From assembly GCF_026125785.1 (NCBI RefSeq), contig NZ_JAHCKL010000002.1, positions 298,420 through 362,419 of the forward strand: a DNA stretch of 64,000 bases, written 5' to 3'. Origin of the DNA: Hydrogenophaga sp. Its GTDB lineage: Bacteria; Pseudomonadota; Gammaproteobacteria; Burkholderiales; Burkholderiaceae_C. The notes beneath the pieces are model-generated. The model was given only the letters and a program-made list of their open reading frames with translations, did no database searches and was not told where the DNA came from. This document shows positions 15,708-49,321 of the stretch, in pieces. The first letter of the stretch is position 1; every line of letters starts with the position of its first letter. The position numbers and the translations under genes were made by a program.

Positions 15708-16466
15708 ATGAACGAAGAACCCATCCTCCCCGGCGCCGAGCCCTTCTTCTTTGCCGGCAACGATGTCGGCGTGCTGGTCTGTCACGGCTTCACCGGTTCC
15801 ACGCAAAGCATGCGTCCGCTGGGCGAGCACATCGCCAAGGCCGGCTACACCGTGATCGGACCGCGCCTGAAAGGGCATGGCGTATCGCCCGCCGCCATGG
15901 CCCGCACCACCGCCAGCGACTGGATCGCCTCGGTGGAGGAAGCCCTGGCCACGCTGCGCAAGAGCTGCTCGCAGATCTTCATGGTGGGTCTGTCCATGGG
16001 TGGGACGCTGTCGCTCTACATGGCCGCCATGCACCCCGATGTCATCAAGGGCACCGTGCCGATCAACGGCGCGGTCCAGCTCAATTCCGCCGACATGGCC
16101 GGCCTTGCGCTGGCCACGGGCCTGCCGGACACGGTGCCCGGCATTGGCTCGGACATCAAGGCGCCCGGCATCCAGGAACTGGCGTACCCCGAGGTACCGG
16201 TGGCCGCGTTCCGCCAGGTGTATGCGCTGATGGCGGTGACCCACGACCTGCTGCCGCGCATCAAGTGCCCGGCGCTGGTGATGACCTCGCGCGAGGACCA
16301 CGTGGTCGACCCCAGCAACGGGCCGCGCATCGTGCGCCGCCTGGGCAGCAGCCGGATCGATTTCCGCTGGCTCGACAACTCTTACCACGTGGCCACGCTG
16401 GACCACGATCTCGACCTCATCGCGCAGGAAACGCTGAGTTTCATCCGCTCCATCGCGGGCAAGTAG
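15708..16466 (+). CDS. Alpha/beta-hydrolase carboxylesterase (Est30-like)
   Basis: This 252-residue cytoplasmic hydrolase has no signal peptide. The nucleophile elbow GLSMGG puts the catalytic serine at 96. Asp197 (REDHVVDP) and His227 (SYHVATLDHD) complete the triad. VLVCHGFTGS supplies the oxyanion-hole region. Size and motifs match monoacylglycerol lipase-like and thermostable carboxylesterases of the Est30 type. A CAGGAGA ribosome site precedes ATG 15708. The 37-bp spacing suggests cotranscription with the CUT2 transporter, so it may de-esterify the imported substrate; this is inference. Confidence 0.88.
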   Translation: MNEEPILPGAEPFFFAGNDVGVLVCHGFTGSTQSMRPLGEHIAKAGYTVIGPRLKGHGVSPAAMARTTASDWIASVEEALATLRKSCSQIFMVGLSMGGTLSLYMAAMHPDVIKGTVPINGAVQLNSADMAGLALATGLPDTVPGIGSDIKAPGIQELAYPEVPVAAFRQVYALMAVTHDLLPRIKCPALVMTSREDHVVDPSNGPRIVRRLGSSRIDFRWLDNSYHVATLDHDLDLIAQETLSFIRSIAGK

Positions 16467-16479
16467 GCCGGGGGCCTGC

Positions 16480-17193
16480 TCAGGCGACCCGGTGCTCCTG
16501 CACGACGAAGGCCGTGATCTCGTGCAGGAAATCCTTGGCGTGGGCCATGGTCACCTGGCCGGCGGGGCTGGCGAAGGCGGCGTTCAGGGTCTCGGGGTCG
16601 GTGAACCAGAGTTCGACGATGCCGTCGATCGGCAGCGCCTCGTAGCCGCAGGGCTCGCCCTTGCGGCGTTCGCGCGCCACCACCACGTTCTGCCGGTAGC
16701 CTGAGACGCCCGGCATGCGCCGCACGTGTCCGGCGTGCACCCGCCATTCGCGCCGGAAGTCCGCTTCGTCGATGTCGGGTCGGCGCTTGAGGATGGACAT
16801 GCGCTTGAGCCGCCGGGCACGCTCGGCGGGCGCAGGGAGTTCGATCACGGTGGTCTGTTCGCAGGTGACGATGTGCAGGCCAGCCAGGAAGCGGGCCTCG
16901 TCCTCGCGCAGCGGCCCGGCCAGGTTGCCGGCGTCGAACGCCTGGCCGGCGTCGGCGGCCGAGTCGAACCAGAGTTGCGAGAAGCCGTCGAAGTCCCAGG
17001 GACCACGCGCGAAGTCGATGCCGCGCTGCAGGCGGTCAAGCACCGGGTTCTGCCAGTAGGCGCGCAGGCCGGGCGCCTGCGCGGCGAGCGGCCCATGGTG
17101 GTCGCGCCAGTAAGCGCGAAAAGCGTCCTCGCCCAGCGCGGGGTTGCGCTGGAGCAGGCCCATGCGGACCGTCTCGGTCGTGGGGTTCATCAT
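16480..17193 (-). CDS. Tandem EthD-domain protein
   Basis: This 237-residue protein consists of two related halves of about 110 residues. Each has the ferredoxin-like EthD pattern: K/QRxPxxxxxxFRxxWRxHHG, then a tyrosine-rich YRQN/YWQN strand, then an ELWF or QLWF strand with a following helix. EthD-type domains are small dimeric alpha-beta barrels found in degradation operons (ethers, polyketide-like and aromatic compounds); most lack a proven reaction. ATG 17193 overlaps the stop of the upstream oxidoreductase gene. It is the last gene of the minus-strand catabolic operon and converges on the esterase. Confidence 0.85.
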   Translation of the reverse strand: MMNPTTETVRMGLLQRNPALGEDAFRAYWRDHHGPLAAQAPGLRAYWQNPVLDRLQRGIDFARGPWDFDGFSQLWFDSAADAGQAFDAGNLAGPLREDEARFLAGLHIVTCEQTTVIELPAPAERARRLKRMSILKRRPDIDEADFRREWRVHAGHVRRMPGVSGYRQNVVVARERRKGEPCGYEALPIDGIVELWFTDPETLNAAFASPAGQVTMAHAKDFLHEITAFVVQEHRVA

Positions 17194-18365
17194 GCTGTGT
17201 CTCCTTCTGGGTGGTGGGCGTTGGCGCGCGCCTCGGCCAGGCCTGGTGCCCGCTTGGCCAGCCAGATGCCATGGCGTTCGGGCCAGCGCTGGAAGGCGGG
17301 GTCGATGCCGAAATGGGCGGCGGCGTGGTGCGGCCAATAGGGGTCCAGCAACGCTTCGCGGCCGATGGCCACGAGATCGGCGCTGCCTCGCGCGAGCACG
17401 GCCTCGGCCTGTTCGGGGTCGACGATCATGCCCACGGCCTGCGTTCGCACGCCGGCCTGCTGGCGCAACTGGCGCGCGAAGGGCACCTGGAAACCCAGGC
17501 CGCGCGGCACCGGCAGGGCACGGGTCTCTTCGGTCAGGCCGCCCGAAGAGCAGTCGACCACGTCCACGCCCAGCGCCGCCAGCGCCTGGGCCAGTCGCAC
17601 CGAATCGTGTTCGCGCCAGCCGCCGATGCTGCCGTCGACCACCGAGAGCCGCGCGAACAGCGGCTTGTGCGCGGGCCAGATGGCCCGCACCGCGCGCGTG
17701 ACTTCCAGCGGCAGGCGCATGCGGCCCTCCAGGCTGCCGCCCCAGCGGTCCTGGCGCTGGTTGGCCAGCGGCGAGAGAAACGCGGCGATCAGGTAGCCGT
17801 GGCCAAAGTGCAGCTCGACCACGTCGCAGCCGGCTTTGTCGGCGCGCACCGCAGCGTCGACAAAGGCCTGGATGATGCCGGCAATGCCGGCTTCATCCAG
17901 TGCCAGCGGCACGCTCCAGCCGGGGCCGGCTGGCCGCGCGCTCGGTCCCAGGCGTTGCCACGGGTCCGGGTCGGCCGCCATCTCGGCCTCGCTCAGCGCG
18001 GCACCGCCTTCCCACAGGGGCTGGCTGCCGGCCTTGCGGCCCGCGTGGCCCAACTGCACGCCGAAGGCCGCGCCCTGCGCCTGGACGAAGGCCGCCACGC
18101 GCGCCAGAGGCGCGATCTGCATGTCGCTCCACAGGCCGAGGTCGGCGCTGCCGATGCGCCCGCGCGGATCGACCGCCGTGCTCTCGGTCAGCACCAGTCC
18201 GGCGCCGCCGAGGGCGAACTTGCCCAGGTGCACCAAGTGCCAGTCGGTGGCCGCGCCGCGCTCGGCCGCATGCTGGCACATGGGCGAGATGACGATGCGG
18301 TTCTTCAGGTCGAGTTCGCGCAGCCGCAAGGGCTGGAACAGCAGGGGCAGGGTGGACATGGTCAT
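17190..18365 (-). CDS. Old-yellow-enzyme-family NADH:flavin oxidoreductase (YqjM-like)
   Basis: This 391-residue TIM-barrel FMN enzyme has Cys30 in SPMCQ, which tunes the flavin in the YqjM/thermophilic-like subgroup. H186 and H189 in ELHFGHGYL are the pair that binds the carbonyl of the substrate. GVQLGHAGRK contributes the glutamine and arginine near the flavin. Such enzymes reduce activated C=C bonds of enones or oxidise the reverse. The gene overlaps its neighbours on both sides. In context it probably acts on a cyclic enone intermediate; that is inference. Confidence 0.93.
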   Translation of the reverse strand: MTMSTLPLLFQPLRLRELDLKNRIVISPMCQHAAERGAATDWHLVHLGKFALGGAGLVLTESTAVDPRGRIGSADLGLWSDMQIAPLARVAAFVQAQGAAFGVQLGHAGRKAGSQPLWEGGAALSEAEMAADPDPWQRLGPSARPAGPGWSVPLALDEAGIAGIIQAFVDAAVRADKAGCDVVELHFGHGYLIAAFLSPLANQRQDRWGGSLEGRMRLPLEVTRAVRAIWPAHKPLFARLSVVDGSIGGWREHDSVRLAQALAALGVDVVDCSSGGLTEETRALPVPRGLGFQVPFARQLRQQAGVRTQAVGMIVDPEQAEAVLARGSADLVAIGREALLDPYWPHHAAAHFGIDPAFQRWPERHGIWLAKRAPGLAEARANAHHPEGDTA

Positions 18366-19282
18366 GCGCGGGCGTGGGCGTCGCGTGCGCGCTGCGTGCC
18401 CAGCCAGGTGCCGAGCATCACCGCGACGAAGCCGACCAGGTGCCAGGCCGTCAACCGCTCACCGAGCAGCACCACGGCACCGAGCACGCCAAAGACCGGC
18501 ACCCAGTAGAAGAACACGGCGGTGCGCGCCACCCCGATGCGGCCGATGGCCTGGTTCCAGGCGATGCTGCTCAGCGCGGTGGCGAAGACGCCGGAGAACA
18601 GCACCAGGCCCCAGGTGCGCCAGCCCACGGCGAAGTCGCCGAACCCAGGCACCGGGGCGGTGGCCAGGTCGTGCACGATCAGCAGCGCGGTGCCGATCAG
18701 GTAGACCGCCCAGCTGATGGCCAGCGCGTCCAGCCGGCCGGCCAGCCGTTGCACCAGCGCGCCGCCGGCGGCAAAGCTGATGACGGCCCCGACCAGCAGC
18801 AGATCGCCGGCCCCGGCCGCGCTCAGCGAATGCAGCGGGTGGCTCAGGATGACGGCGGCCACGCCCAGGAAACCCAGGGCCAGGCCGGCCAGGCGCGGTG
18901 CCGTGAGGCGTTCATGGAAGGCGACCGCCGCCAGCAGGGCGGACACCAGCGGGGACAAGGCCATGATCAGGGCCGCGTTGGTGGCGGTGGAGCGCAACAG
19001 ACCCTGGGTCAGCAGAATCTGGTTGGCATAGACCATCAGCAGGCCGCAGACCAGCAGGCCCGCCATCTGGCGACCCGTGAGCCGGCGCGGCAGGCGGCGC
19101 CACCAGAGCAGCACCGCGGTCAGCACGATGCAGGCCACGCCCATGCGCAGCGAAGCCACGCGCAGGGGGCTGAGTTCACCGGTCAGCAGCTTGACCGCGG
19201 TGACGTTCAGGCCCCAGATCAGCATGGCCAGCAGCAGCACCGCCTGCGTGGCGGCGGCGGATGGCTCGCGCGGGTCGCTCAT
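18362..19282 (-). CDS. EamA-family (DMT) transporter
   Basis: This 306-residue protein has about ten membrane segments and two EamA repeats. It begins with LLLAMLIWGLNVTAVKLL, and the second repeat includes AISWAVYLIGTALLIV and FSGVFATALSSIAWNQAI. The family exports or imports small metabolites. I chose ATG 19282; an in-frame ATG at 19330 would overlap the preceding gene by 22 bp. The stop overlaps the oxidoreductase start. It probably exports a product or intermediate of the pathway. Confidence 0.88.
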   Translation of the reverse strand: MSDPREPSAAATQAVLLLAMLIWGLNVTAVKLLTGELSPLRVASLRMGVACIVLTAVLLWWRRLPRRLTGRQMAGLLVCGLLMVYANQILLTQGLLRSTATNAALIMALSPLVSALLAAVAFHERLTAPRLAGLALGFLGVAAVILSHPLHSLSAAGAGDLLLVGAVISFAAGGALVQRLAGRLDALAISWAVYLIGTALLIVHDLATAPVPGFGDFAVGWRTWGLVLFSGVFATALSSIAWNQAIGRIGVARTAVFFYWVPVFGVLGAVVLLGERLTAWHLVGFVAVMLGTWLGTQRARDAHARA

Positions 19283-19308
19283 GCGCTGTGGGGGCCGGAT
19301 GCGGGGGA

Positions 19309-20277
19309 TCAGCCTTCGAGCGATTTCCACATCTCGATGTCGCGCTCGGCGGTCCAGATGCGCGGGTGCACATGGCCGGTGGCCTCGTCGTAGGCGCGCG
19401 AGACGTCGAACGGCATGCAGTGGTCGAAGATCACCCAGTGGCCGTACACCGGCCGCAGCGCCGCCATGGTCTCCTTGTAGATCGTGCCCAGGTCCTTGCC
19501 TTCGGCCACGCCGTTGTTCACCAGGGTGTAGACGTCGGAGATGAAGGCGCGCGTCGAGGCGATCGCGCGGCGCACGCTGCCGGCGTTTTCCAGCGCGCCG
19601 CCGCGGCCGGGCACCAGCTTCTCGAAGCCGAAGCCGGCCAGGCGGTCCAGCGTGGTGGGCCAGTCGCGGAAGTAGCAGTCGCCCGCGTACGCGGTGCTCT
19701 GGTACTCCACCAGGTCACCGGCGAAGCAGATCTTCTGGTCTTCCAGGTAGGCGATGGTGTCGCCCTTGGTGTGGCCGCGCCCGATCTGTGCCAGCTTGAC
19801 CTCCAGCGTCTTGCCCAGCCACACGCTCATGCTGCCGTCGAAGGTCATGGTGGGCCAGGTCAGCCCCGGCGGCACCGATTCCACGTTGCGGAACAGCCTC
19901 GGGAAGCGGCCGATCTCGCTGGCCTTGTCCTGCTCGCCGCGCTCCACGATCAGGTCGTAGGTGTCTCGGCTGGCGATGATCTGCTCGGCGCCTTCCTGGA
20001 AATAGGCCGAGGCGCCGAGGACGCGCACCGCGTGGTAGTGGCTCAGCACCACGTACTTGATGGGCAGCGGCGTGACCTCGCGGATGCGGCGGATCACGTC
20101 CTGCGCCATCGCGGGCGTGGCCTGGGTGTCGACGATCATCACGGCCTCGTCGCCGATGAAGACGCCCGTGTTGGGGTCGCCCTCGGCGGTGTAGGCCCAG
20201 GCGTTCTCGGACAGGCGGGTGAAGCTGATCTGCTTGTCCTGCATGTCCGCGTGGCTGGCGAAGGTCTTGGTGTTCAT
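19309..20277 (-). CDS. MBL-fold hydrolase-like protein with a degenerate metal motif
   Basis: This 322-residue protein has a metallo-beta-lactamase fold. The motif HxHxDH reads H80-Y-H82-A-V-R, so the Asp and His that bind the second metal are replaced by Val and Arg. Later ligands are kept, for example the His of GRGHTKGD and the Asp of CFAGDLV. It may bind one metal or be non-hydrolytic. Proteins of this type occur in catabolic operons and their reaction is not known to me. The start ATG 20277 lies 32 bp downstream of the livF end. Confidence 0.83.
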   Translation of the reverse strand: MNTKTFASHADMQDKQISFTRLSENAWAYTAEGDPNTGVFIGDEAVMIVDTQATPAMAQDVIRRIREVTPLPIKYVVLSHYHAVRVLGASAYFQEGAEQIIASRDTYDLIVERGEQDKASEIGRFPRLFRNVESVPPGLTWPTMTFDGSMSVWLGKTLEVKLAQIGRGHTKGDTIAYLEDQKICFAGDLVEYQSTAYAGDCYFRDWPTTLDRLAGFGFEKLVPGRGGALENAGSVRRAIASTRAFISDVYTLVNNGVAEGKDLGTIYKETMAALRPVYGHWVIFDHCMPFDVSRAYDEATGHVHPRIWTAERDIEMWKSLEG

Positions 20278-20308
20278 GGGAAGGAATGGAGGCGTGAAAG
20301 GTGGAATC

Positions 20309-21019
20309 TCAGTGCGCGCCGAGGTAGGCCGCGCGCACCTTGGGGTCGTCGAGCAGTTCGCGTCCGGCGCCCTGCAGGGTGATGCGGCCGGTCTCCAGCA
20401 CGTAGGCGCGGTCGGCCACGCTCAGCGCCTGCTTGGCCATCTGCTCCACCAGCAGGATGGTCAGGCCGGCCTGGCGCAGTTGCCGGATGGTGTCGAAGAT
20501 GTCCTTGATGATCAGCGGCGCCAGACCCAGCGACGGTTCGTCGAGCAGCAGCAGGCGGGGTTCGCTCATGAGCGCGCGGGCAATGGCCAGCATCTGCTGC
20601 TCGCCGCCCGACAGCGTGCCGGACGGCTGGTGCTGCCGCTCGGCCAGGCGCGGAAAGCGCGCGAACTCGCGGTCGATCGCGGCCTGCACCGCGCGCGGGT
20701 CCTTGCGGCGCGCATAGGCGCCGAGCATCAGGTTCTCGCGCACGGTCTGGTCGGCAAACACGCCGCGCCCCTCCGGCGACATGGCCATGCCCAGGCCGAC
20801 GCGCTGGTGCGGGGGCACCTGGGTGATGTCTCTGCCATCGAACACGATGCGCCCGGCCGCCGCCGGCTCCAGGCCGGCAATGCTCTTGAGCAGCGTGCTC
20901 TTGCCCGCGCCGTTGGCGCCGATGATGGTGACGACCTCGCCAGCGCCCACTTCCAGGCTGACTTCACGGACCGCCTCGATGGCGCCGTAGTTCACGCGCA
21001 CGCCTTCAAGCTGGAGCAT
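20309..21019 (-). CDS. livF: Branched-chain-amino-acid-type ABC transporter ATPase LivF
   Basis: This 236-residue ATPase has Walker A GANGAGKST, signature LSGGEQQ and Walker B LLLLDEPSLGLAP, all typical of LivF. ATG 21019 was chosen because the protein then begins MLQLEGVRVNYG, the normal LivF start. It overlaps the end of the fused permease-ATPase gene by 14 bp. With LivH, LivM-LivG and the binding protein it completes a Liv-type importer, here probably for a carboxylate or aromatic-type substrate rather than an amino acid. Confidence 0.94.
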   Translation of the reverse strand: MLQLEGVRVNYGAIEAVREVSLEVGAGEVVTIIGANGAGKSTLLKSIAGLEPAAAGRIVFDGRDITQVPPHQRVGLGMAMSPEGRGVFADQTVRENLMLGAYARRKDPRAVQAAIDREFARFPRLAERQHQPSGTLSGGEQQMLAIARALMSEPRLLLLDEPSLGLAPLIIKDIFDTIRQLRQAGLTILLVEQMAKQALSVADRAYVLETGRITLQGAGRELLDDPKVRAAYLGAH

Positions 21020-22778
21020 GGGGTGCCTCCTCTTCGGTGCCCAGGTAGGCGGCAATGACGCGCGGGTCGGCCTGGACCTGCTCGGGGCTGCCCTCGGCGA
21101 TCTTGATGCCGTAGTCGAGCACGATGACGTGGTCCGAGATGGCCATCACGAGGTCCATGTGGTGTTCCACCATGAGAATGGTCACGCCGCAGCGGCCGAT
21201 GCGTTGCAGCAGTTGGCCCAGTTCGGCCGTCTCCTGCGGGTTCAGTCCGGCGGCCGGCTCGTCCAGCAGCAGCAACTGCGGCTCCGTGGCCAGCGCGCGC
21301 GCCAGTTCCACGCGCCGCTGCAACCCGTAGGGCAGGCTGCCGGCGTTCAGGTGGGCCTGCGCGCCCAGCCCCACGAGCTCCAGCAGTTGTAGAGCACGCT
21401 CGCGCGTGGCCTTTTCCTGCCGCCGGGCACCGGGCAGCGCCAGCAGCGAAGCGAAGAAGCCGTTGGCCATGCGGCTGTGGCGCCCGAGCATGACGTTGTC
21501 CAGCACCGAGAGCTCCGCGAACAGGCGCAGGTTCTGGAAGGTGCGGCCCATGCCCATCTTGCAGATGGCGTGCATGGGCGTTCCGGTGATCTCGCGCCCG
21601 AGGAACCGGATGGAGCCTTCGCTGGGCTCGATCACGCCAGTGAGCATGTTGATGAGCGTGCTCTTGCCCGCGCCGTTGGGGCCGATGAGGGCGTGCACGT
21701 GGCCGCGCTGCAGCCGAAAGGAGATGTCCTGCGCCGGCTTCACGCCGCCGAAGGCCTTGCTCACGTGGCTGACCTCCAGCAGTTCGCCTTCGCCTTGCGC
21801 CACGGTGTAGCCGGCGTCGCCGCCCAGGCCCGTGCCTGGTGCCGGCTGGCCACGGCCGAACAGCCGGCTGGCCGCACCCACCACGCCGCCGGGCATCACG
21901 TACAGCGCGAACAGCAGCAGGAAACCGTAGGCGAAGTGCTGGGCCGAGGGCCAGCGCGCCAGCAGCGCGTCGATGGTGGTGAGGATCACCGCTCCGGCCA
22001 GCGGGCCGTAGAGCGAGCCCGCGCCCCCGAACAGCACCAGCAGCAGGATGAAGATGGAGAGGTGGAAGTTGATGAAGTCGGAGTTGATGTACTGGTTCTG
22101 CTGGGCCACCAGCGCACCCGCGATGCCGCAGGTGACGGCCGCGACCACGAAGGCGATGACCTTGGCGCGGTACACCCGCACGCCCACCGAAGAGGAGGCG
22201 ATCTCGTCGGCCTGCAGCGAGAGCAGCGCGCGGCCGAAACGGCCCTGGATGAGGTTGCGGATCAGCAGGTGCGTCAGCGCGCACAGCAGCAGGCCCAGCC
22301 ACACCCATTGCAGCGAACTCAGCGGCTGCCCGTCCCAGGTGATGGGGCGGATGCCGTAGATGCCCTGGGCGCCGCCGAAGACGTCGGTCCATTCGCTCAC
22401 CAGTTTTTCGACCACGATGCCGAACGCGAGCGTCACCATGGCGAGGTAAGGCCCCTTCACCCGCAGCGAGGGCAGGGCGATCAGCACACCGCAGATGCCC
22501 GAAACACTCGCCGCCAGCACCAGGGCCAGCCAGGGGTCGATCTCGGTGCGGCTGGTCAGCAGCGCCACGGCGTAGGCCCCGGCCGCGAACAGGCCGGCCT
22601 GGCCGAGCGACTTCTGGCCGGCGTAGCCCACGAGCACGTTCATGCCTGCGGCCGCCAGGTAGTAGACGCACATCATGAAGGCGATGCGCAGGTAGTAGTC
22701 GTTGCCCAGCAGGGTGCTGGCGGCCATCAGCGCGGCCGTCGCGGCCACGACGAGGGCCAGGTGGGTCGCGAACTTCAT
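21006..22778 (-). CDS. Fused LivM permease and LivG ATPase
   Basis: This 590-residue protein joins two subunits of a Liv-type ABC importer. Residues 1-305 are the LivM permease, with GYAGQKSLGQAGLFAAGAY as the family block and GGAGSLYGPLAGA near 251-263. A linker of about 30 residues follows. Residues 333-590 are a LivG ATPase with Walker A GPNGAGKST (366-374), GMGRTFQNLRLF (Q-loop) and Walker B LLLLDEPAAGLNP. The frame is uninterrupted. LivM-LivG fusions exist in other proteobacteria but are the minority form. ATG 22778 overlaps the livH stop. Confidence 0.93.
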   Translation of the reverse strand: MKFATHLALVVAATAALMAASTLLGNDYYLRIAFMMCVYYLAAAGMNVLVGYAGQKSLGQAGLFAAGAYAVALLTSRTEIDPWLALVLAASVSGICGVLIALPSLRVKGPYLAMVTLAFGIVVEKLVSEWTDVFGGAQGIYGIRPITWDGQPLSSLQWVWLGLLLCALTHLLIRNLIQGRFGRALLSLQADEIASSSVGVRVYRAKVIAFVVAAVTCGIAGALVAQQNQYINSDFINFHLSIFILLLVLFGGAGSLYGPLAGAVILTTIDALLARWPSAQHFAYGFLLLFALYVMPGGVVGAASRLFGRGQPAPGTGLGGDAGYTVAQGEGELLEVSHVSKAFGGVKPAQDISFRLQRGHVHALIGPNGAGKSTLINMLTGVIEPSEGSIRFLGREITGTPMHAICKMGMGRTFQNLRLFAELSVLDNVMLGRHSRMANGFFASLLALPGARRQEKATRERALQLLELVGLGAQAHLNAGSLPYGLQRRVELARALATEPQLLLLDEPAAGLNPQETAELGQLLQRIGRCGVTILMVEHHMDLVMAISDHVIVLDYGIKIAEGSPEQVQADPRVIAAYLGTEEEAPHAPA

Positions 22779-23698
22779 ACCTTCTCCACCACGGGCTTGC
22801 CGAACAGGCCGGTGGGACGGAAGGCCAGTACCAGGATCACCAGGGCGAAGACGGCGACCTCGCGCCACTGCGCCTGCCAGAGGTTGATGAGCGACTCCAG
22901 CACGCCCAACGCAAAGCCGCCGATGACGCAGCCGCGCGGGTTGGACAGGCCGCCGATCATGGCGCCGGAGAAGCCCTTGAGGCCCACGGCCAGTCCCATG
23001 AAGAGCGAGGCCTGGGCGATGGGAGCGAGCAGGAAGCCCGAGAGGCCCGCCAGCGCCGCGCTGACGACGAAGGCGCCGATCATCACCGCCTGGGTGTTGA
23101 TGCCCATCAGGCTGGCGATCTGGCCGTTGGCCGCCACGGCGCGCATGGCCTTGCCCACCATGGTGCGGTTCATGACATGGTCGAACACCAGCATCACCGC
23201 CACGCTCACGCCCAGTGTGAGCAACTCCTGCGGCCGCACGCCAATGCCCCAGAAGCGGATCACCTCGTCGCCCACGGGCGCGGGCACCACCACGGGCTTG
23301 GGGCCCCAGATGGCCAGTCCGATGCTCTGCAGGATCACGCCGAAACCCAGGGTGCTCATGACCCAGGCCATGCCCGGGCGGCCGGCGAACGGGCGCACGC
23401 CCGCCACATACAGCAGCCAGCCCAGCAGGCCCATGACACCCAGTGCGGCCGCAAAGGCCAGCAACTGGGCAGTGAGACTGGGCTCGGTGGTGCCGAACGA
23501 GGTCGACGACACCGGCATGCCCAGCATCAGGAACAGCGCGCTCATGCCGATGAACGCACCTGCCGAGACGAACTCGCCGTGCGAGAAGTTCAGCGTCTTG
23601 GTGGTGGTGAACGTGATGCTGAACCCGAGCGCGACCAGCGCGTAGGCACCGCCCACGGCCAGTCCGCTCAGGATCGCCTGCAGAAGCGCGACGGTCAT
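22775..23698 (-). CDS. livH: Liv-type ABC transporter permease LivH
   Basis: This 307-residue permease begins with LLQAILSGLAVGGAYALVAL, the classical LivH N-terminus. The segment TLNFSHGEFVSAGAF and the later KGFSGAMIGGLSNPRGCVIGG contain the ATPase-contact region. About eight membrane segments are visible. Its stop overlaps the start of the fused livM-livG gene. It lies 10 bp downstream of the substrate-binding protein gene. Confidence 0.94.
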   Translation of the reverse strand: MTVALLQAILSGLAVGGAYALVALGFSITFTTTKTLNFSHGEFVSAGAFIGMSALFLMLGMPVSSTSFGTTEPSLTAQLLAFAAALGVMGLLGWLLYVAGVRPFAGRPGMAWVMSTLGFGVILQSIGLAIWGPKPVVVPAPVGDEVIRFWGIGVRPQELLTLGVSVAVMLVFDHVMNRTMVGKAMRAVAANGQIASLMGINTQAVMIGAFVVSAALAGLSGFLLAPIAQASLFMGLAVGLKGFSGAMIGGLSNPRGCVIGGFALGVLESLINLWQAQWREVAVFALVILVLAFRPTGLFGKPVVEKV

Positions 23699-23708
23699 GG
23701 CGATCGGT

Positions 23709-24902
23709 TTACTGTTTGAAGTCCGCGGCGGTGAACGAGGTGATCAGCGCGTCGCTGTAGGGCAGCAGCTTGCCGTCCTTCCACTTGATCCACACCAGGT
23801 CCTTGGCGGTGAGGGCTTCGTGGTCGTTCTTGCTGAAAGGCTTGGTGTAGGTCTTGAGCAGGCCTTGCACCGGGGCCTGCAGGTCCTCCAGCGCCAGGCG
23901 GATCTGGGAGCCGTCGGTGCTCTTGGCCTGCTTGATCGCCTCGGCCATCAGCAGCACCGAGTCGTAGCCGTGCAGCGCGAACGAGAACGAGCTGGGCGCC
24001 TTGAGCTTGGAGCCGATGCGGTCATACAGCTTCTGCTGCGTCGGCGTGCGGGTGTCGCCCACGGTGCGCATGAAGAGCGGCTTCTCGGCCAGGGTCTTGC
24101 CCGCGGCGTCGTAGAAGGTGATGTTGTCCGCGGCCCAGGAGGTCAGCGTGAGCGGGAAGTAGTTGATCTTCTCCATGCTGCGGATGAGCTGGGCGATGGG
24201 CGTGCCCTGGGCCCACACCACCACCGTGTCCACGCCGGCGGACTTCATCTTGCCCAGTTGGGAAGTCATGTCCGTGTCGCCCACGCCGAAACGCTCGACG
24301 CCCGCGATCTTGATGTCCTGCAGCTTGGCGATCTCTTCCATGTCCTTGAGGCCGCCCTGGCCGTAGCCGGTGGTCTCGGCCATCAGGCCCACCACCTTGG
24401 AGGCGCTGTTCTTCTTCACGTAGGCCATCAGCGCGGCCACTTGCTCACGGTCCACCATGGAGACGCGGAACATGTAGTTGTCCGCGCCCGGGCTCATGGG
24501 TTTGGTGATGTCGGTGCCGGAGCCCACGTTACCCATCACGGGCACCTTCTTCTGGTTGGCGATGTGCTTCCAGGCCATGGCGTTGCCGGAGTTGGTCGGG
24601 CCGAACACGGCCGTGACCTTCTCGTTGTCCACCAGGTCGCTCATGTTCTGGATGGACTTGGGCGGCGCGGACACGTCGTCGCGCGTGACCAGGGTGAGCT
24701 TGCGGCCCAGCACACCGCCCGCGGCGTTGATGTCGGCGATGGCGGCTTCCATGCCCAGCACGGCGGCCTGGCCGCTCTGGGCGGAAGGCGAGGCGGACAG
24801 GTCGCCGTTGTACCCCAGCTTGATGTCCTGGGCCATCGAGGCGCCGGCCGCGACGGCAAAGGTTGCCGCCGCGAGCGCGGTCCGCAGGTGAGTCAGCTTC
24901 AT
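23709..24902 (-). CDS. Liv-type ABC transporter substrate-binding protein
   Basis: This 397-residue periplasmic protein has a Sec signal ending near GASMAQD (cleavage about residue 24). A type-1 periplasmic binding (Peripla_BP_6) fold follows: DIKLGYNGDLSASPSAQSGQ, then AAIADINAAGGVLGRKL and ATTGYGQGG. I chose ATG 24902, which carries a normal signal peptide and a GGAGAC ribosome site; the frame is open further upstream but that part is not signal-like. Homologues bind branched-chain amino acids, amides or aromatic and dicarboxylic acids. In this operon the ligand is probably the catabolic substrate. Confidence 0.92.
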   Translation of the reverse strand: MKLTHLRTALAAATFAVAAGASMAQDIKLGYNGDLSASPSAQSGQAAVLGMEAAIADINAAGGVLGRKLTLVTRDDVSAPPKSIQNMSDLVDNEKVTAVFGPTNSGNAMAWKHIANQKKVPVMGNVGSGTDITKPMSPGADNYMFRVSMVDREQVAALMAYVKKNSASKVVGLMAETTGYGQGGLKDMEEIAKLQDIKIAGVERFGVGDTDMTSQLGKMKSAGVDTVVVWAQGTPIAQLIRSMEKINYFPLTLTSWAADNITFYDAAGKTLAEKPLFMRTVGDTRTPTQQKLYDRIGSKLKAPSSFSFALHGYDSVLLMAEAIKQAKSTDGSQIRLALEDLQAPVQGLLKTYTKPFSKNDHEALTAKDLVWIKWKDGKLLPYSDALITSFTAADFKQ

Positions 24903-24975
24903 GGTTGTCTCCTTGGTTGGAAAAAGGGCGCGGGGCCCGGACTGAAAAACGGAAAGAGGGTGGCCGGGGGGGCGG

Positions 24976-25752
24976 CTACGCCGCCAGGAAACCACCGTCC
25001 ACCGGCAGGGTGATGCCGGTCACGTAGCGGGACATGTCGGAGGCGAGGAAGATGACCGGGCCCACAAGGTCCTCGGTCTCTCCCACGCGCCCCATCGGGA
25101 TGCGGGTCATGAAGGCCTCCAGCCGCGCGGGGTCCTCGCGCGTGGCTGCGGTCATGGGCGTGGCGATCACGCCGGGTGCCAGCGCGTTCACGCGCACCCC
25201 CAGCGGCGCCAGCTCGGCCGCCAGCGACTGCGTGAACATCTTGATGGCGCCCTTGGACGGCGAATAGCCCAGGCTGCCCCCCTGGCCGGCGTAGGCGGCG
25301 ATGGAGGCGATGTTGACGATGCCGCCGCGGGCGGACTTGATCGCGGGCAGCCAGGCCATGGTTGCGTTGAAGGTGCCCTGGACGTTGACGTCCATGGTCT
25401 TCTTCCAGTTGGCCGCTGCCCTGGGGCTGGCCGTGCCTTCGCGGATGATCACGCCGGCGTTGTTGACCAGCAGGTCGACCGTGCCCACGTCCTGCGCCAC
25501 GCGCTGCGCCAGCGCCTCGCAGGCCTCGGCCGACGTGACGTCCAGCGCGAACGACCAGGCCTGGGCGCCGTCGTCGCGCGCGAGTTGCGCGGTCTGCGCG
25601 GCGGCCTCGGCATTCATGTCGGTGGCGATCACACGGGCACCGGCCTGTGCCAGGCCGAGCACGATGGCGCGGCCGTTGCCTTGCCCGGCGCCCGTGACCA
25701 GGGCCAGGCGGCCCTGCAGCAGCGCGGGTGCGATGTGGGGAGGAAAGGTCAT
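24976..25752 (-). CDS. Short-chain dehydrogenase/reductase
   Basis: This 258-residue classical SDR has the NAD(P)-binding motif TGAGQGNG at residues 20-27. NNAG follows at 97-100. The catalytic set is Ser150, Tyr163 and Lys167 in YSPSK. An Asp at the end of the second strand (IATDMN) favours NAD over NADP. It should oxidise an alcohol to a ketone or the reverse in the pathway. It lies between the flavoprotein gene (20 bp upstream) and the binding-protein gene (73 bp downstream). Confidence 0.93.
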   Translation of the reverse strand: MTFPPHIAPALLQGRLALVTGAGQGNGRAIVLGLAQAGARVIATDMNAEAAAQTAQLARDDGAQAWSFALDVTSAEACEALAQRVAQDVGTVDLLVNNAGVIIREGTASPRAAANWKKTMDVNVQGTFNATMAWLPAIKSARGGIVNIASIAAYAGQGGSLGYSPSKGAIKMFTQSLAAELAPLGVRVNALAPGVIATPMTAATREDPARLEAFMTRIPMGRVGETEDLVGPVIFLASDMSRYVTGITLPVDGGFLAA

Positions 25753-25772
25753 GGCAGGGTCTCCGTCGGGGC

Positions 25773-27524
25773 TCAGGCGGTGGCTTGCGCGGCGGTGGCC
25801 AGCGGTGCGATTTCCGCCGCTGCGGGCTGCTGCGCGAGTTCGCGTCCGGCCACGTAGCCGAAGGTCAGCGCCGGCCCCAGGGTGATGCCCGCACCTGGGT
25901 AGTTGCCGCCCATGACGCTGGCCGCGTCGTTGCCCACCGCGTACAGGCCCGGGATGGGTTGGCGCTGGGCATCGAGCACGCGTGTGCGCTCGTCGGTGAC
26001 CAGGCCGGCAAAGGTACCGATGTCGCCCACCACCAGCTTGATGGCGTAGTACGGGCCGTGCTCCAGCGGCGCCACACAGGGATTGGGCGCCACCGTGGCG
26101 TCGCCCTGGTAGCGGTTGTAGGCCTTGCTGCCCTTGCCGAACGCGGGGTCTTCGCCGCGCTGCGCACCGGCGTTGAACTCTGCCACCGTGCGTTCGAGCA
26201 CCGCCGGATCGACGTCGATCTCTCTGGCCAGCGCGGCCACCGTGGCGCCGCGCTTGAGATAGCCGCTGCGCAGGTGGCGGCCGATGGGCAGCGGCGCCGG
26301 CGCCACGCAGCCCAGTCCGTAGTTGCGCAGGGCCTTGTGGTCGCACAGCAGCCAGGCCGACACCTCGGGCTCGTCCTTGCAGGCCGCCACCATGCCCTGC
26401 ACGAAGTCGTGGTAGCTGTTGCCTTCGTTGGTGAAGCGCACGCCGCGGCGCGTCACGGCGATCACGCCGGGCTTGGCGCGGTCGATGAAGTGGGGCATCA
26501 CGCCCCGGCTGCCATCGGGGCGCGTGGTCACCGAGGCGGGCACCCAGGCCGCCGCGTGCGGGATGGTGCCATCGACCCAGCCGCCCACGCTCTCGCCCAG
26601 GCGCAGCCCGTCGCCGGTGTTGGTCTGGGGCGAGGGCGAATAGTGTTCCTGCCCTGTGGGCGCGTGGGGAAAGAGTTGGCGGCGGCGCTCCACGTCGTAG
26701 GGGAAGCCACCGCAGGCCAGGACCACGCCGCGCGCCGCGCGCACCAGCACCGGCTGGCCTTCGTGCTGCACCATGGCGCCGGTCACGCGGCCCTCTTCAG
26801 AGACCAGGCGCTCCACCGGCGAAGACAGCCAGATGGGGATCTTCAGGTCCATGGCGGCGCGCGCCAGGCGGCCGGCGAGGGCGTTGCCGTTGGTCAGCGT
26901 CATGCCGCGCCCATGCCGCAGCACGTCCAGGAAATGCCGGGTCAGCCGCCGGGTCACGTAGGCGAAGGACACCGGCGACTTGAAGGCGCGCATGAAGTGT
27001 TTGATCTCCGGGCCCGAGCCCAGCATCATGCCGAACACCGTGAGTTCGGGCAGCGGCGGCGCCAACTGTTTGATGCGCGGCCCCAGTTCGCGTCCGTCGA
27101 ACGGGCGGGTCACCATGGAGCGGCCGCCCTGCTGGCCGCCCGGCGCCTCGGCGTGGTAGTCGGGGAACACCGCCGGCAGGTCGAACTGCACGCAGGTGTT
27201 GCGGGTGAAGAAGTCGATCGCCTCAGGGCCTTGGGTCAGGAAGGTGTGTACGCGCGCCGCGTCGTAGTGCGTCGTGGCCTCGTGCCTCATGTAGGTCACG
27301 GCCGCGCCCGAAGGCTCCTCGATGCCTTGCTCCCTGGCCAGGCGCGTACCCGGAATCCAGAGCCAGCCGCCCGAGCGCGCGGTGGTGCCGCCAAACAGCG
27401 GCTGCTTGTCCACCACCAGCACCTTTAGGCCCTGCGAAGCCGCCGTGATGGCCGTGGCCATGCCCGAGGCGCCGGTGCCCACCACGAGCACGTCCACGTC
27501 CCGTGTCTTTGTCTTTTCCGTCAT
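25773..27524 (-). CDS. FAD-dependent dehydrogenase, 3-ketosteroid-Delta1-dehydrogenase-like
   Basis: This 583-residue flavoprotein of the fumarate reductase/KstD superfamily has the FAD-binding motif VGTGASG (G16, G18, G21). GGTTARSGGWLWIP follows at about 45-58. The C-terminal flavin cap GNYPGAGITLGPALTFGYVAG is typical of KstD-like enzymes. These enzymes introduce a C=C bond next to a ketone, or reduce it. As the first gene of the operon it probably catalyses an early desaturation. Steroid activity is not implied; no other steroid-degradation genes are in the window. Confidence 0.9.
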   Translation of the reverse strand: MTEKTKTRDVDVLVVGTGASGMATAITAASQGLKVLVVDKQPLFGGTTARSGGWLWIPGTRLAREQGIEEPSGAAVTYMRHEATTHYDAARVHTFLTQGPEAIDFFTRNTCVQFDLPAVFPDYHAEAPGGQQGGRSMVTRPFDGRELGPRIKQLAPPLPELTVFGMMLGSGPEIKHFMRAFKSPVSFAYVTRRLTRHFLDVLRHGRGMTLTNGNALAGRLARAAMDLKIPIWLSSPVERLVSEEGRVTGAMVQHEGQPVLVRAARGVVLACGGFPYDVERRRQLFPHAPTGQEHYSPSPQTNTGDGLRLGESVGGWVDGTIPHAAAWVPASVTTRPDGSRGVMPHFIDRAKPGVIAVTRRGVRFTNEGNSYHDFVQGMVAACKDEPEVSAWLLCDHKALRNYGLGCVAPAPLPIGRHLRSGYLKRGATVAALAREIDVDPAVLERTVAEFNAGAQRGEDPAFGKGSKAYNRYQGDATVAPNPCVAPLEHGPYYAIKLVVGDIGTFAGLVTDERTRVLDAQRQPIPGLYAVGNDAASVMGGNYPGAGITLGPALTFGYVAGRELAQQPAAAEIAPLATAAQATA

Positions 27525-27572
27525 TGCTGCTGCTCCTGCTCTGCCCGATGAGACCGGGACTCGGTCTTCGTA

Positions 27573-27607
27573 TGATTATGGTCAATCAATTCGTTAATAT
27601 CGAACGA
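27573..27607. promoter_or_regulatory. Two inverted repeats between the KstD-like operon and the IclR gene
   Basis: TGATT-N6-AATCA (27573-27588) and TCGTT-N7-AACGA (27591-27607) lie side by side in the 127-bp AT-rich gap between divergent genes. They are suitable sites for the IclR-type regulator encoded at 27652 to control both directions. The assignment rests on symmetry and position. Confidence 0.45.
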
Positions 27608-27651
27608 TTAGACTTCATCAGACAAATCCATGAATATCGGGGAAAACACGG

Positions 27652-28479
27652 ATGGCTACACTCGGGCCTTCGCGCATGAAATCGCCGACCATGGAAAAGA
27701 ACCGACGGGGCATTCAATCGATCGAGATCGGCAGCGCGCTGCTGCTGCAGCTGGCCCGTCACGTGCGGCCGGTGCCGCTCAAGGATCTCGCGCGCGCCGC
27801 GGGCATGACGCCAGGCAAGGCGCATCCCTACATGGTCAGCTTCCTCAAGGTCGGTTTCGTGACCCAGACCGACGCGGGCCACTACGAACTGGGCCCGCTG
27901 GCGCTGACCCTGGGGCTCACGCGGTTGCAGCGCATGGACCCGGTGAAGGAGGCGTCGCAGGTGATCGAGGCCCTGGCCGAGGAAACCGGGCAGAGCGTCG
28001 CCGTGGCGGTCTGGGGCAACCTGGGGCCGACCATCGTTCGGCTGGAAGAGCCGATACAGCCGCTGCACGTCAACCTGCGCGCGGGCACGGTGATGTCCCT
28101 GGTGAACACCGCCACGGGCCGCCTGTTCGCCGCCTACATGCCGCCCAAGCTGGTGGAGCGGCTGCTGTCGGACGAACTGGCCCGCGTGGGCGACGCGCCG
28201 GAGACGCCGCTCAAGCTCGGCCACGAGGCCTTCGAGGCGCTGCTCGCGGAGACGCGCCGCCATGGCCTCTCGCGTTCGCTGGGCCAGCCGATTCCCGGCA
28301 TTGATGCGCTGTGCGCGCCGGTGTTCGACGGCGCGGGCCACCTCGTGCTGGGCCTGTTGGTGATGGGGCCCTCGGCCACGTTCGACAGCCGTTGGGACGG
28401 TGCGGTGGCCAAGGCCGCGCTGCAATGCGCGGCGGAAGTCTCCCGTCGCATCGGCAACGACCGCGCGCGCGCTCCATGA
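27652..28479 (+). CDS. IclR-family transcriptional regulator
   Basis: This 275-residue regulator has a winged helix-turn-helix at about residues 25-75 (VPLKDLARAAGMTPGKAHPYM). An IclR-type effector domain follows, with GQSVAVAVWGNLGP and ending in DALCAPVFDGAGHLVLGL. It is divergent from the flavoprotein gene and almost certainly controls the catabolic operon, probably with a pathway compound as effector. ATG 27652 is the longest start; ATG 27676 or 27691 are possible. A perfect bidirectional terminator begins at its stop codon. Confidence 0.92.
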   Translation: MATLGPSRMKSPTMEKNRRGIQSIEIGSALLLQLARHVRPVPLKDLARAAGMTPGKAHPYMVSFLKVGFVTQTDAGHYELGPLALTLGLTRLQRMDPVKEASQVIEALAEETGQSVAVAVWGNLGPTIVRLEEPIQPLHVNLRAGTVMSLVNTATGRLFAAYMPPKLVERLLSDELARVGDAPETPLKLGHEAFEALLAETRRHGLSRSLGQPIPGIDALCAPVFDGAGHLVLGLLVMGPSATFDSRWDGAVAKAALQCAAEVSRRIGNDRARAP

Positions 28480-28513
28480 AAAAACCCGCCGGGTCGCGGC
28501 GGGTTTTTTCATG
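28475..28513. terminator. Bidirectional intrinsic terminator between the IclR gene and the cytochrome c gene
   Basis: A perfect 16-bp inverted repeat, CATGAAAAAACCCGCC (28475-28490) and its exact complement (28498-28513), flanks a 7-nt loop. The GC core CCCGCC/GGCGGG is followed by six Ts on each strand. It includes the IclR stop codon and terminates both convergent genes. Confidence 0.93.
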
Positions 28514-28528
28514 CGCCAGGGGCGCGGA

Positions 28529-28834
28529 TCACTTCAGGCTGAGCACCCAGGCGGCCAGCTTCTTGGCCTCGGCTTCGCTGACCTGCGTGTTCGCGGGCAT
28601 GGGGATCGCACCCCAGACGCCGGAGCCGCCCTTGACGATCTTGGTGGCCAGGGCATCCACGGCCTTGGCGTCGCCTGCGTACTTCTTGGCGACGTCCTTG
28701 TAGGAAGGGCCCACCAGCTTCTTGTCCACCGCATGGCAGGCCATGCAGTTCTTGCTCTTGGCCAGGGCTTCATCGGCCATCGCGGGCAGCGCCAGCGTGC
28801 TCATGGCGGCCAGAATGAGGAAAGCGCGTTTCAT
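28529..28834 (-). CDS. Small periplasmic class I cytochrome c
   Basis: This 101-residue protein has a signal peptide ending at PAMADEA (cleavage about residue 20). One haem-binding motif CMACH spans residues 30-34, and Met79 in IPMPAN is the probable sixth ligand. The size and the KNCMACHAVDKKLVGPSYKDVAKKY-type arrangement match cytochrome c551/c552 electron carriers. It probably transfers electrons to a terminal oxidase or other periplasmic acceptor. It has its own upstream region and ends at the bidirectional terminator. Confidence 0.94.
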   Translation of the reverse strand: MKRAFLILAAMSTLALPAMADEALAKSKNCMACHAVDKKLVGPSYKDVAKKYAGDAKAVDALATKIVKGGSGVWGAIPMPANTQVSEAEAKKLAAWVLSLK

Positions 28835-28957
28835 GGGGGACTTCCTTGTGATGTTTGCCAGGATTGGCGTGGCGCGATTTTAACGAAGCCCGTTTTGCGC
28901 AGACACGACGGGTTACAGTTTCTTGCCGGCTTTGTCCGGCCTTTACCGGAGCATGTG

Positions 28958-44850: not shown

Positions 44851-45429
44851 TGGGGAATCCATGAATTAAATCGGATGCCGACCTTAGTGATTTCGGGGAT
44901 AAATGGTTTATCTTGAGGTGGAATTTTTCATGTTAGAAACTGTTATTAATTGACCATTCAGAAAAGAATGGGTGACCGCCAGAAGGTTTTTTTCATCGAT
45001 GAAAAGGTGTGATGAAATGCATGTGCAGGCATTGTTTTGAGTACAAAATCTCGTTGTTTTTCATGTGATTAGATGGGATTTATAACTTTATTGATAAGCT
45101 TTTACATCCCCCTTTGTATAGGACCGAAGTTCCACTTGTCGCATCGACTGAGGAGCAAAGTCCACAGTTGGAAATTCGAGCGTAATACCAAAAGAACCAT
45201 GCGCCCAATGTCTTCGTGCAGGTGGTAAGTGGTGACACCAAATTTGGGTTAAGTCGAAGGACCGTCATTACCCTGCCGACGTTATGGGATTGGATGGGGC
45301 GGGAAATGCCGGCCTGAGCCCGTTCGGGTGGAGGGGCAGGCCCGGGCGCGGCGCGGCCTGGCGGCCCACGGAGGCGTCACCAGGGGCGGGCTTACCCCTA
45401 TGGAAGGCGCCCGCCGGGGCTTTAAAATT
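44851..45429. promoter_or_regulatory. AT-rich regulatory region between flp and the malonate regulator
   Basis: About 580 bp without a credible gene, much poorer in GC than the flanks up to about 45270. It holds a perfect 16-bp palindrome, TTTTCATCGATGAAAA (44990-45005), and AATGC-N8-GCATT nearby (about 45016-45033). Promoters for the leftward tad operon and the rightward malonate operon must lie here, but no hexamer pair is clear enough to call. A 62-codon open frame on the minus strand (45080-45268) resembles no protein. Confidence 0.5.
44990..45005. repeat. Perfect 16-bp palindrome upstream of the tad operon
   Basis: TTTTCATCGATGAAAA is fully self-complementary. It stands alone in the AT-rich intergenic region about 295 bp upstream of flp, and is a candidate operator. 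No partner protein can be assigned. Confidence 0.6.
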
Positions 45430-45439
45430 ATGCGTAATT
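45426..45439. promoter_or_regulatory. Candidate operator at the malonate regulator start
   Basis: AATTATGCGTAATT is a near-perfect palindrome (12 of 14 positions). It overlaps GTAATTAC (45434-45441), which is exact and fits the GT-Nx-AC pattern of GntR sites. It straddles the chosen ATG 45430, which would suit autoregulation or mean that ATG 45466 is the true start. Confidence 0.4.
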
Positions 45440-46125
45440 ACACGTCATTATTCAGCCCGCAGCCCATGCTCAACTCCCTGCACGACGAAGTGGCCACGCA
45501 ATTGCGGGAGCGCATCTTCGCCGGCCAGTTGGTGCCCGGCAGCTTCATCGACGAGCCGGCGCTGTGCAATGAGCTTTCCATTTCCCGCACGCCACTGCGG
45601 GAGGCTCTGAAAGTGCTCACCGCCGAAGGCCTGGTGCGCCACGAACCCCGGCGCGGCTGTTTCGTCAGCGAGGTCACCGAGCGCGACCTGGACGAGATCT
45701 TTCCCGTCATCGCGCTGCTCGAAGGGCGCTGCGCGCACGAGGCGGCCGTCAACGCATCGGACGCCGAGCTGGCCGCGCTGGAGCAGTTGCACGAACGCCT
45801 GGAGCGCTGCGCGCGTGCACGGCTCATCAACGACTACTACGAGGCCAACTTCGCCATCCACGAAGCCATCATCACCCTGGCCAACAACCGCTGGCTGGCC
45901 CAGGTGATCGGTGACCTGCGCAAGATCGTCAAGCTCGCGCGCCTGCAGCAGTTGCATGCCCCGGGCCGCCTGGAGCAGAGCCTGTCCGAGCACCTGGCGG
46001 TGTTTGCCGCGCTCAAGGCGCGCGACGCCGAAGGCGCGGAGGCCGCCATGCGCACCCATCTCACGCGCCAGCGCACCGCCTTGCGCGAGCTCGCGCGCAG
46101 CCAGCGATCGAGGCTATCCGCATGA
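45430..46125 (+). CDS. GntR-family (FCD) regulator of the malonate operon
   Basis: This 231-residue regulator has a GntR winged helix (QLRERIFAGQLVPGSFIDE, then LSISRTPLREALKVL). An FCD effector domain follows, with metal-ligand-like residues in NFAIHEAI and SLSEHLAVFAAL. Its stop overlaps the malonyl-CoA decarboxylase start, so it leads its own operon like MatR of rhizobia. ATG 45430 was chosen; ATG 45466 is a plausible alternative because a palindrome covers the first start. Malonate is the likely effector by context. Confidence 0.88.
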   Translation: MRNYTSLFSPQPMLNSLHDEVATQLRERIFAGQLVPGSFIDEPALCNELSISRTPLREALKVLTAEGLVRHEPRRGCFVSEVTERDLDEIFPVIALLEGRCAHEAAVNASDAELAALEQLHERLERCARARLINDYYEANFAIHEAIITLANNRWLAQVIGDLRKIVKLARLQQLHAPGRLEQSLSEHLAVFAALKARDAEGAEAAMRTHLTRQRTALRELARSQRSRLSA

Positions 46126-47471: not shown

Positions 47472-47519
47472 AAGATCGAGGCCTGCCGGCCGCCCATTCC
47501 AACCACAGGAGACAACCGC

Positions 47520-48509: not shown

Positions 48510-48522
48510 CGGAAAGGACAGC

Positions 48523-49293: not shown

Positions 49294-49321
49294 TTCCCTT
49301 CTGTCTTCGCTCAGTCTGCAC

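Follow-up and report, generated by a model that had tools for sequence, protein, structure and literature searches.

The window, by which we mean the whole 64,000-nucleotide stretch of Hydrogenophaga sp. DNA analysed here, carries a minus-strand operon of ten genes that joins a KstD-like flavoprotein and a short-chain dehydrogenase/reductase (SDR) to a Liv-type importer, with a divergent IclR-family regulator gene alongside. The operon is real and its gene arrangement goes beyond chance, because 33 of 37 distinct relative loci retain the core KstD-SDR-LivKHMGF. With confidence that is evenly poised, we propose a peripheral operon for uptake of an alicyclic acid, oxidation of a ring alcohol and desaturation or aromatisation of a ring ketone, which in its family feeds hydroxyphenylacetate/homogentisate catabolism; the substrate is one that we infer. 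The operon is conserved and, as far as our searches show, has no pathway assignment in the literature searched: as an earlier sequence-only reading of this DNA had supposed, topic searches found no paper that assigns the gene set, and literature searches by PDB code turned up nothing of relevance. Within its family we would class it as feeding hydroxyphenylacetate/homogentisate catabolism. Its features, in window coordinates, are these:

25773..27524, minus strand: KstD-like FAD ketone desaturase (predicted), 583 aa; PRK06134 subfamily model, FAD_binding_2
24976..25752, minus strand: SDR alcohol dehydrogenase (predicted), 258 aa from the ATG at 25752; Pfam adh_short_C2, 1.4e-59
23709..24902, minus strand: LivK-type periplasmic binding protein, 397 aa; Peripla_BP_6, 5e-57
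22775..23698, minus strand: LivH-type permease; BPD_transp_2
21006..22778, minus strand: LivM-LivG fusion (permease and ATPase in one chain), 590 aa; BPD_transp_2 at 29-291, ABC_tran at 350-509
20309..21019, minus strand: LivF-type ATPase; ABC_tran, with LivF as the top NCBIfam match, under its cut-off
19309..20277, minus strand: metallo-beta-lactamase-fold (MBL) protein of a homogentisate-linked family; Lactamase_B
18362..19282, minus strand: EamA (DMT) exporter (predicted); two EamA stretches
17190..18365, minus strand: old yellow enzyme (OYE) of the YqjM/XenA-like class; Oxidored_FMN, 1.1e-63
16480..17193, minus strand: double EthD protein with tandem EthD domains (EthD2); EthD, two stretches
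27652..28479, plus strand: divergent IclR-family regulator; NCBIfam IclR-family models, all under cut-off
27525..27651, no strand: KstD/IclR intergenic control region; promoter-like consensus matches

Inspection of the open reading frames (ORFs) bears out the claim of ten minus-strand genes, mostly overlapping or nearly so, as judged by ORF coordinates, GC content at third codon positions (GC3) and Pfam. Between 16480 and 27524 the ten ORFs run, from the IclR side, in the order KstD, SDR, LivK, LivH, LivM-LivG, LivF, MBL, EamA, OYE, EthD2, and neighbours overlap slightly or sit no more than 73 bp apart. Overlaps measure 4 bp at EthD2/OYE, OYE/EamA and LivMG/LivH and 14 bp at LivF/LivMG; the gaps are 26 bp (EamA/MBL), 31 bp (MBL/LivF), 10 bp (LivH/LivK), 20 bp (SDR/KstD) and, at the widest, 73 bp (LivK/SDR). 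GC3 lies between 0.85 and 0.96, and at 0.76 for the SDR ORF when this is taken with its long 5' extension. Pfam recognises EthD (two stretches), Oxidored_FMN, EamA (two), Lactamase_B, ABC_tran, BPD_transp_2, Peripla_BP_6, adh_short and FAD_binding_2. Pfam and NCBIfam thereby confirm the gene calls and the IclR gene of the sequence-only reading, with two corrections: LivM and LivG form one fused protein, and one of the accessory enzymes is the MBL-fold protein (19309-20277), which is missing from the title of that reading. By Pfam the Liv (HAAT) importer set is complete, with a binding protein, two permeases and two ATPases; in alphaproteobacterial relatives the fused LivM and LivG are separate genes.

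To place the operon among its relatives, a scan with the KstD-like protein yielded 60 loci, of which the 31 with at least 69% KstD identity were used and the 29 more distant ones dropped; six further stretches from family genomes brought the set to 37 distinct loci, with L132, L134, L161 and L162 left out as duplicates of named loci. Several stretches end before the operon tail (L016, L017, L018 and L028, for example), and counts for the tail are therefore lower bounds. The divergent IclR gene is present at 36 of the 37 loci, the MBL gene at 28 (on the opposite strand in L027) and the double EthD gene at 22, and the window's exact gene order recurs at 12 (L003-L011, L014, L044 and L133, the MBL of L014 aligning in two pieces). 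Nine alphaproteobacterial loci (L031-L033, L036-L039, L043 and L046) keep IclR-SDR-KstD-LivKHM. A KstD orthologue occurs in nine of 200 genomes of a family sample and, at 79% identity or more, in three of 60 genomes of the genus, the window's own being counted both times, with one more genus member at 61%. Conserved partner genes beyond the operon were sought and rejected; the flanking-gene families found in at least three of the 38 stretches compared come from Variovorax loci only, and these shared flanks were judged by eye to be Variovorax chromosome context.

The chemistry of the operon is best approached through its flavoprotein. The protein passes the PRK06134 subfamily model (777.7 bits against a cut-off of 747) and fails three KstD models (484.7 against 789, 439.7 against 788 and 389.9 against 793 bits); it also stays under the cut-offs for ChcC2 (NF053677, 4-oxocyclohex-2-ene-1-carboxylate dehydrogenase; 589.3 against 900 bits) and ChcC1 (338 against 1000 bits). 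Its best solved relative is a 3-oxosteroid 1-dehydrogenase, 7p18. Residues Y123, Y371, Y542 and G546, near-invariant in an alignment of 58 rows (duplicates counted), align to the KstD positions Y119, Y318, Y487 and G491, which we take to be the active-site residues in the numbering of the 4c3x KstD protein. Because all four positions are kept, a role as ketone desaturase is well supported at the level of sequence, in line with the cyclic ketone or alcohol chemistry proposed earlier; aromatisation of the ring by the same enzyme would be a further, conjectural step. The flavoprotein thus shares its active-site positions with 3-ketosteroid delta1-dehydrogenases (7p18, 4c3x) but differs from them in scoring under three KstD cut-offs and in having no steroid-specific gene recognised nearby. 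The SDR has 5er6 and 5ha5 as solved relatives. Elsewhere in the window's genome, eight more long KstD-like genes with 41-56% identity lie on contigs C23, C43, C5, C12, C30 and C2.

What ties the operon to homogentisate is the company it keeps in relatives. A homogentisate-pathway gene lies within the fetched stretch at eight of the 37 loci, and full-length hmgA occurs at three (L021, L057 and L139). The clearest case is L139, where the IclR gene is followed on one strand by KstD-SDR-LivK-LivH-LivMG-LivF-MBL-HmgA-FahA-EamA-OYE-EthD2 and an MhaA-like hydroxylase gene stands on the IclR side; HmgA (643.6 against a cut-off of 510.75) and FahA (479.7 against 375.3) both pass curated models. At L021, hmgA-fahA lies 3' of MBL, and at L057 the IclR side has hmgA, fahA and a hydroxylase gene and the tail has ScoAB. 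The locus L135/L144 runs from KstD to LivF and on through MhaA-like, MBL, EthD2, VOC, FahA, MFS, EamA, ScoA and ScoB, a row without hmgA; FahA and ScoA of L144 pass their curated cut-offs. Genes for 3-oxoacid CoA-transferase (ScoAB) are thus found at two loci, L135/L144 and L057, and full-length fahA stands in the operon tail of L025, L045 and L137. A Polaromonas genome bin preserves a relic of hmgA between MBL and EamA (L019:18347-18748, 134 residues, 70% identity), after which other sequence follows. In the alphaproteobacterial L035, hmgA-maiA-fahA-MBL-hydroxylase adjoins IclR-SDR-KstD with a MarR-like gene between; the row of L040 includes MBL, hydroxylase and a gene that by eye looks EthD-like, and at L059 a 48% KstD is separated by some kilobases from hmgA and a maiA-like gene. 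Across the family sample HmgA occurs in seven of nine genomes with the operon and in 74 of the 191 without it, a modest association (one-sided p 0.024, uncorrected for ancestry); a rough binomial estimate of linkage, which takes the loci as independent, was set aside. Eight of the nine have full-length-type FahA, and six have an MhaA-like hydroxylase at a threshold of 50%.

These neighbourhoods change two earlier statements. That no ring-cleavage gene is present holds for the window; with homogentisate-pathway genes in or beside the operon at the eight relative loci, the lack of ring cleavage is particular to this window and genus and does not extend to the operon family as a whole. That the operon is not tied to a standard aromatic pathway is not supported, given relatives' operons that contain or adjoin hmgA, fahA, MhaA-like and CoA-transferase genes and an MBL family that is itself linked to them. 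A neighbouring observation concerns the window's own genome, where a VOC protein gene is followed by an MhaA-like monooxygenase gene (about 40%; L141:8548-10921); VOC genes related to this one adjoin fahA in L025, L045 and L144 and may encode a ring-cleavage or isomerase step.

The MBL protein provides a second connection. Near full-length copies of at least 45% identity were surveyed in 229 class-level genomes, giving 15 places outside the window's operon, one of them in the same genome. An MhaA-like (3-hydroxyphenylacetate-hydroxylase-like) monooxygenase gene occurs at 11 of the 15, directly adjoining MBL in ten, and HmgA at five, so that hydroxylase, HmgA or both are found in the fetched stretches at 12; the remaining three are the second copy in the window's genome (L101), a genus-mate (L102) and a short contig (L110). 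In a tree of 40 sequences, made up of the window's copy, L101 and 38 taken from a set of 48, operon forms are intermixed with hydroxylase- and hmgA-linked forms, and the starred branches force at least three changes. Judged from these sequences, the window's MBL protein belongs to a hydroxylase/hmgA-linked family, and we propose that family as a marker of homogentisate clusters. The second copy, at L101:9471-10451 (55%), has no hydroxylase or hmgA gene in its fetched stretch, and L102 shows a similar setting.

Examination of the MBL protein, 58% identical to the solved structure 8d2z, points to an unusual metal site. H80, H82, H169 and D188 are kept in the conservation alignment (positions assigned by eye); where an Asp and the final His ligand would normally be read, the protein has V84, within a motif HYHAVR, and R225. 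The ligand pattern of dinuclear metallo-beta-lactamases, presumably HxHxDH followed by a later His, Asp and His, is not matched. With these two ligands replaced, the site probably holds a single metal ion. Of the two other accessory enzymes, the OYE has 8uaj and 3hf3 as solved relatives, along with XenA and YqjM entries, and the second half of EthD2 resembles 4-methylmuconolactone methylisomerase (3hfk, E 1.2e-4); EthD2 differs from that enzyme in being a fused double domain and in its MmlI model score (27 bits against a cut-off of 180). Its paired H33/H153 and YxQN motifs are near-invariant in 27 rows (duplicates counted).

From these elements a route can be proposed. The Liv importer would take up a small, probably six-ring alicyclic acid; the SDR, by analogy with its family, would turn a ring alcohol into a ketone; and the KstD-like flavoprotein, whose catalytic residues are kept, would remove hydrogens beside that ketone and drive the ring towards a phenol. 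OYE, EthD2 and MBL may serve enone, isomer or lactone side steps, the weakest part of the scheme, and EamA may export excess or toxic intermediates. The product would enter the hydroxyphenylacetate/homogentisate route, for which several relatives carry hmgA, fahA, MhaA-like hydroxylase and CoA-transferase genes, whereas in the window's organism the pathway would take a different end, perhaps another ring-cleavage route or release of the product from the cell. If the proposal is true, the homogentisate pathway gains a feeder that starts from a non-aromatic ring, and the uncharacterised MBL family with solved structure 8d2z gains a proposed pathway. It also offers a substrate screen: an operon-bearing Variovorax without hmgA should brown its medium on the right compound.

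A more specific version, which we put forward as tentative and somewhat doubtful, is a new aerobic route in which the KstD-like desaturase and the SDR convert a cyclohexane- or cyclohexenone-acetic acid, by aromatisation of the ring, into a hydroxyphenylacetate or homogentisate, the homogentisate branch in the same operon of some relatives cleaves the ring, and the mono-metal MBL and the double EthD protein supply new steps. It would be the homogentisate counterpart of the cyclohexanecarboxylate-to-4-hydroxybenzoate route. Natural substrates in the form of plant quinol-derived cyclohexenones are an idea only.

Several known systems resemble parts of this proposal. In the text consulted, MhaAB turns 3-hydroxyphenylacetate into homogentisate, and HpaBC takes 3- or 4-hydroxyphenylacetate to homoprotocatechuate (PMC3053370); HmgR is listed as an IclR-family regulator for homogentisate use (PMC8222616), and hmgA and fahA of a Variovorax are listed about 1 kb apart (PMC9115942). 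The operon family resembles the mhaAB-hmgABC pathway in the HmgA, FahA and MhaA-like hydroxylase genes of relatives and in its type of regulator (PMC8222616), but the consulted portion of PMC3053370 mentions no KstD-like, SDR, OYE, EthD or Liv genes, and the window has no ring-cleavage genes. Aromatisation of cyclohexanecarboxylate is mentioned in the consulted part of PMC5906575; that route (ChcC1/ChcC2) likewise uses a KstD-superfamily ketone desaturase and the same logic of aromatising a ring ketone, but differs in that our flavoprotein falls under the ChcC1/ChcC2 cut-offs and relatives' ring-cleavage genes are of the homogentisate type, not pobA/protocatechuate. The operon was not mentioned in the portions consulted of these four papers.

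A number of observations weigh against the homogentisate connection. The window's assembly (93.84% complete), the window included, gave no HmgA match, and a FahA search of it returned short FahA-domain matches and no full fahA, so that in this organism the upper pathway would have to end elsewhere or release its product. HmgA occurs in five of 60 genus genomes, none of them operon carriers. Two genus-mates listed as 100% complete (G463 and G452) carry KstD-SDR-LivKHMGF-EthD2-EamA without HmgA, their operons (L161, L162) lacking MBL and OYE as well, and G447 (87% complete, 61% KstD) is also without it. G231 (99%, one contig) gave no HmgA match either, although it carries FahA, an MhaA-like hydroxylase and the complete operon; G414 and G314 gave no MhaA-like match at 1e-30. 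At 29 of the 37 loci the fetched stretch, in several cases ending early, holds no homogentisate gene. Among alphaproteobacterial relatives a CoA-type route is possible at L031, L039 and L035, close to which genes resembling acyl-CoA dehydrogenases, ligases and thiolases were recognised by eye. Finally, the aromatisation step is itself one that we infer.

Some of these absences also speak for a first alternative, to which we assign a minor but real probability: the compound degraded would be another ring structure, with an end product that bypasses homogentisate, and hmg genes would have joined the operon in some lineages through related signals or shared IclR ancestry. The missing HmgA of the window's genome, of the two complete core-bearing genus-mates and of G231 fits this account, as do the variable operon tail and the lack of any hmg gene in the stretches fetched for the 12 loci that share the window's gene order exactly. 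The account is harder to reconcile with hmgA, fahA, hydroxylase and ScoAB genes associated in differing arrangements across several lineages, with the hmgA relic, or with an MBL of the homogentisate-linked family at 28 of 37 loci (L027: other strand).

Less probable, and in our view unlikely, is a substrate that is already aromatic (a hydroxyphenylacetate-like acid), with KstD, SDR, OYE, EthD and MBL serving to repair by-products that are over-oxidised or reduced, for instance quinones or cyclohexadienones. In its favour, five of the six operon genomes fetched for this purpose (G349, G231, G250, G313 and G425, not G272) hold a further unit, IclR<>MBL-hydroxylase, which in two cases, L146 and L155, is accompanied by hmgA. 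The binding protein points the same way: the nearest solved fold to LivK is 4q6w (24-25% identity), whose entry title, cut short at '3-Hydroxy Be...', we read as a complex with 3-hydroxybenzoate. Such a ligand is a lead only, because leucine binders score almost as high. Against a repair role, KstD and SDR stand first in the operon and are part of the core that is best conserved, even where the genome has no HmgA; genes for repair would more naturally adjoin the hydroxylase gene than come with an importer of their own. Degradation of steroid, bile-acid or terpenoid rings, suggested by 7p18 as best solved relative, we judge very improbable from family cut-offs and neighbouring genes, given that the flavoprotein falls under three KstD models, passes PRK06134 and scores higher with ChcC2 than with the KstD models, and that no steroid-specific gene was recognised by eye in the loci read, the CoA-type genes near L031, L039 and L035 notwithstanding.

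Our proposal of a feeder operon leaves its control to be considered. Promoter-like sites are confined to the KstD/IclR region: two sigma-70-like consensus matches were found across 16300-28900 (12.6 kb), both between KstD and IclR, a pattern compatible with one operon transcript that does not prove it. The best NCBIfam score of the IclR gene is 72.3 bits with BhcR, under cut-off like all IclR-family models. In a word comparison, the words CATCTGATA/TATCAGATG, a candidate operator palindrome, were found in the KstD/IclR region of 17 of 43 relative regions (duplicates counted) and not in the window's own. Two further features of the window were noted by eye: a small class I cytochrome c-like protein at 28529-28834, 3' of the IclR gene on the opposite strand, and, at 45328-50875, a GntR-like regulator, a possible malonyl-CoA decarboxylase, a Bug receptor and an enoyl-CoA hydratase-like gene, which together have the look of a malonate-type cluster.

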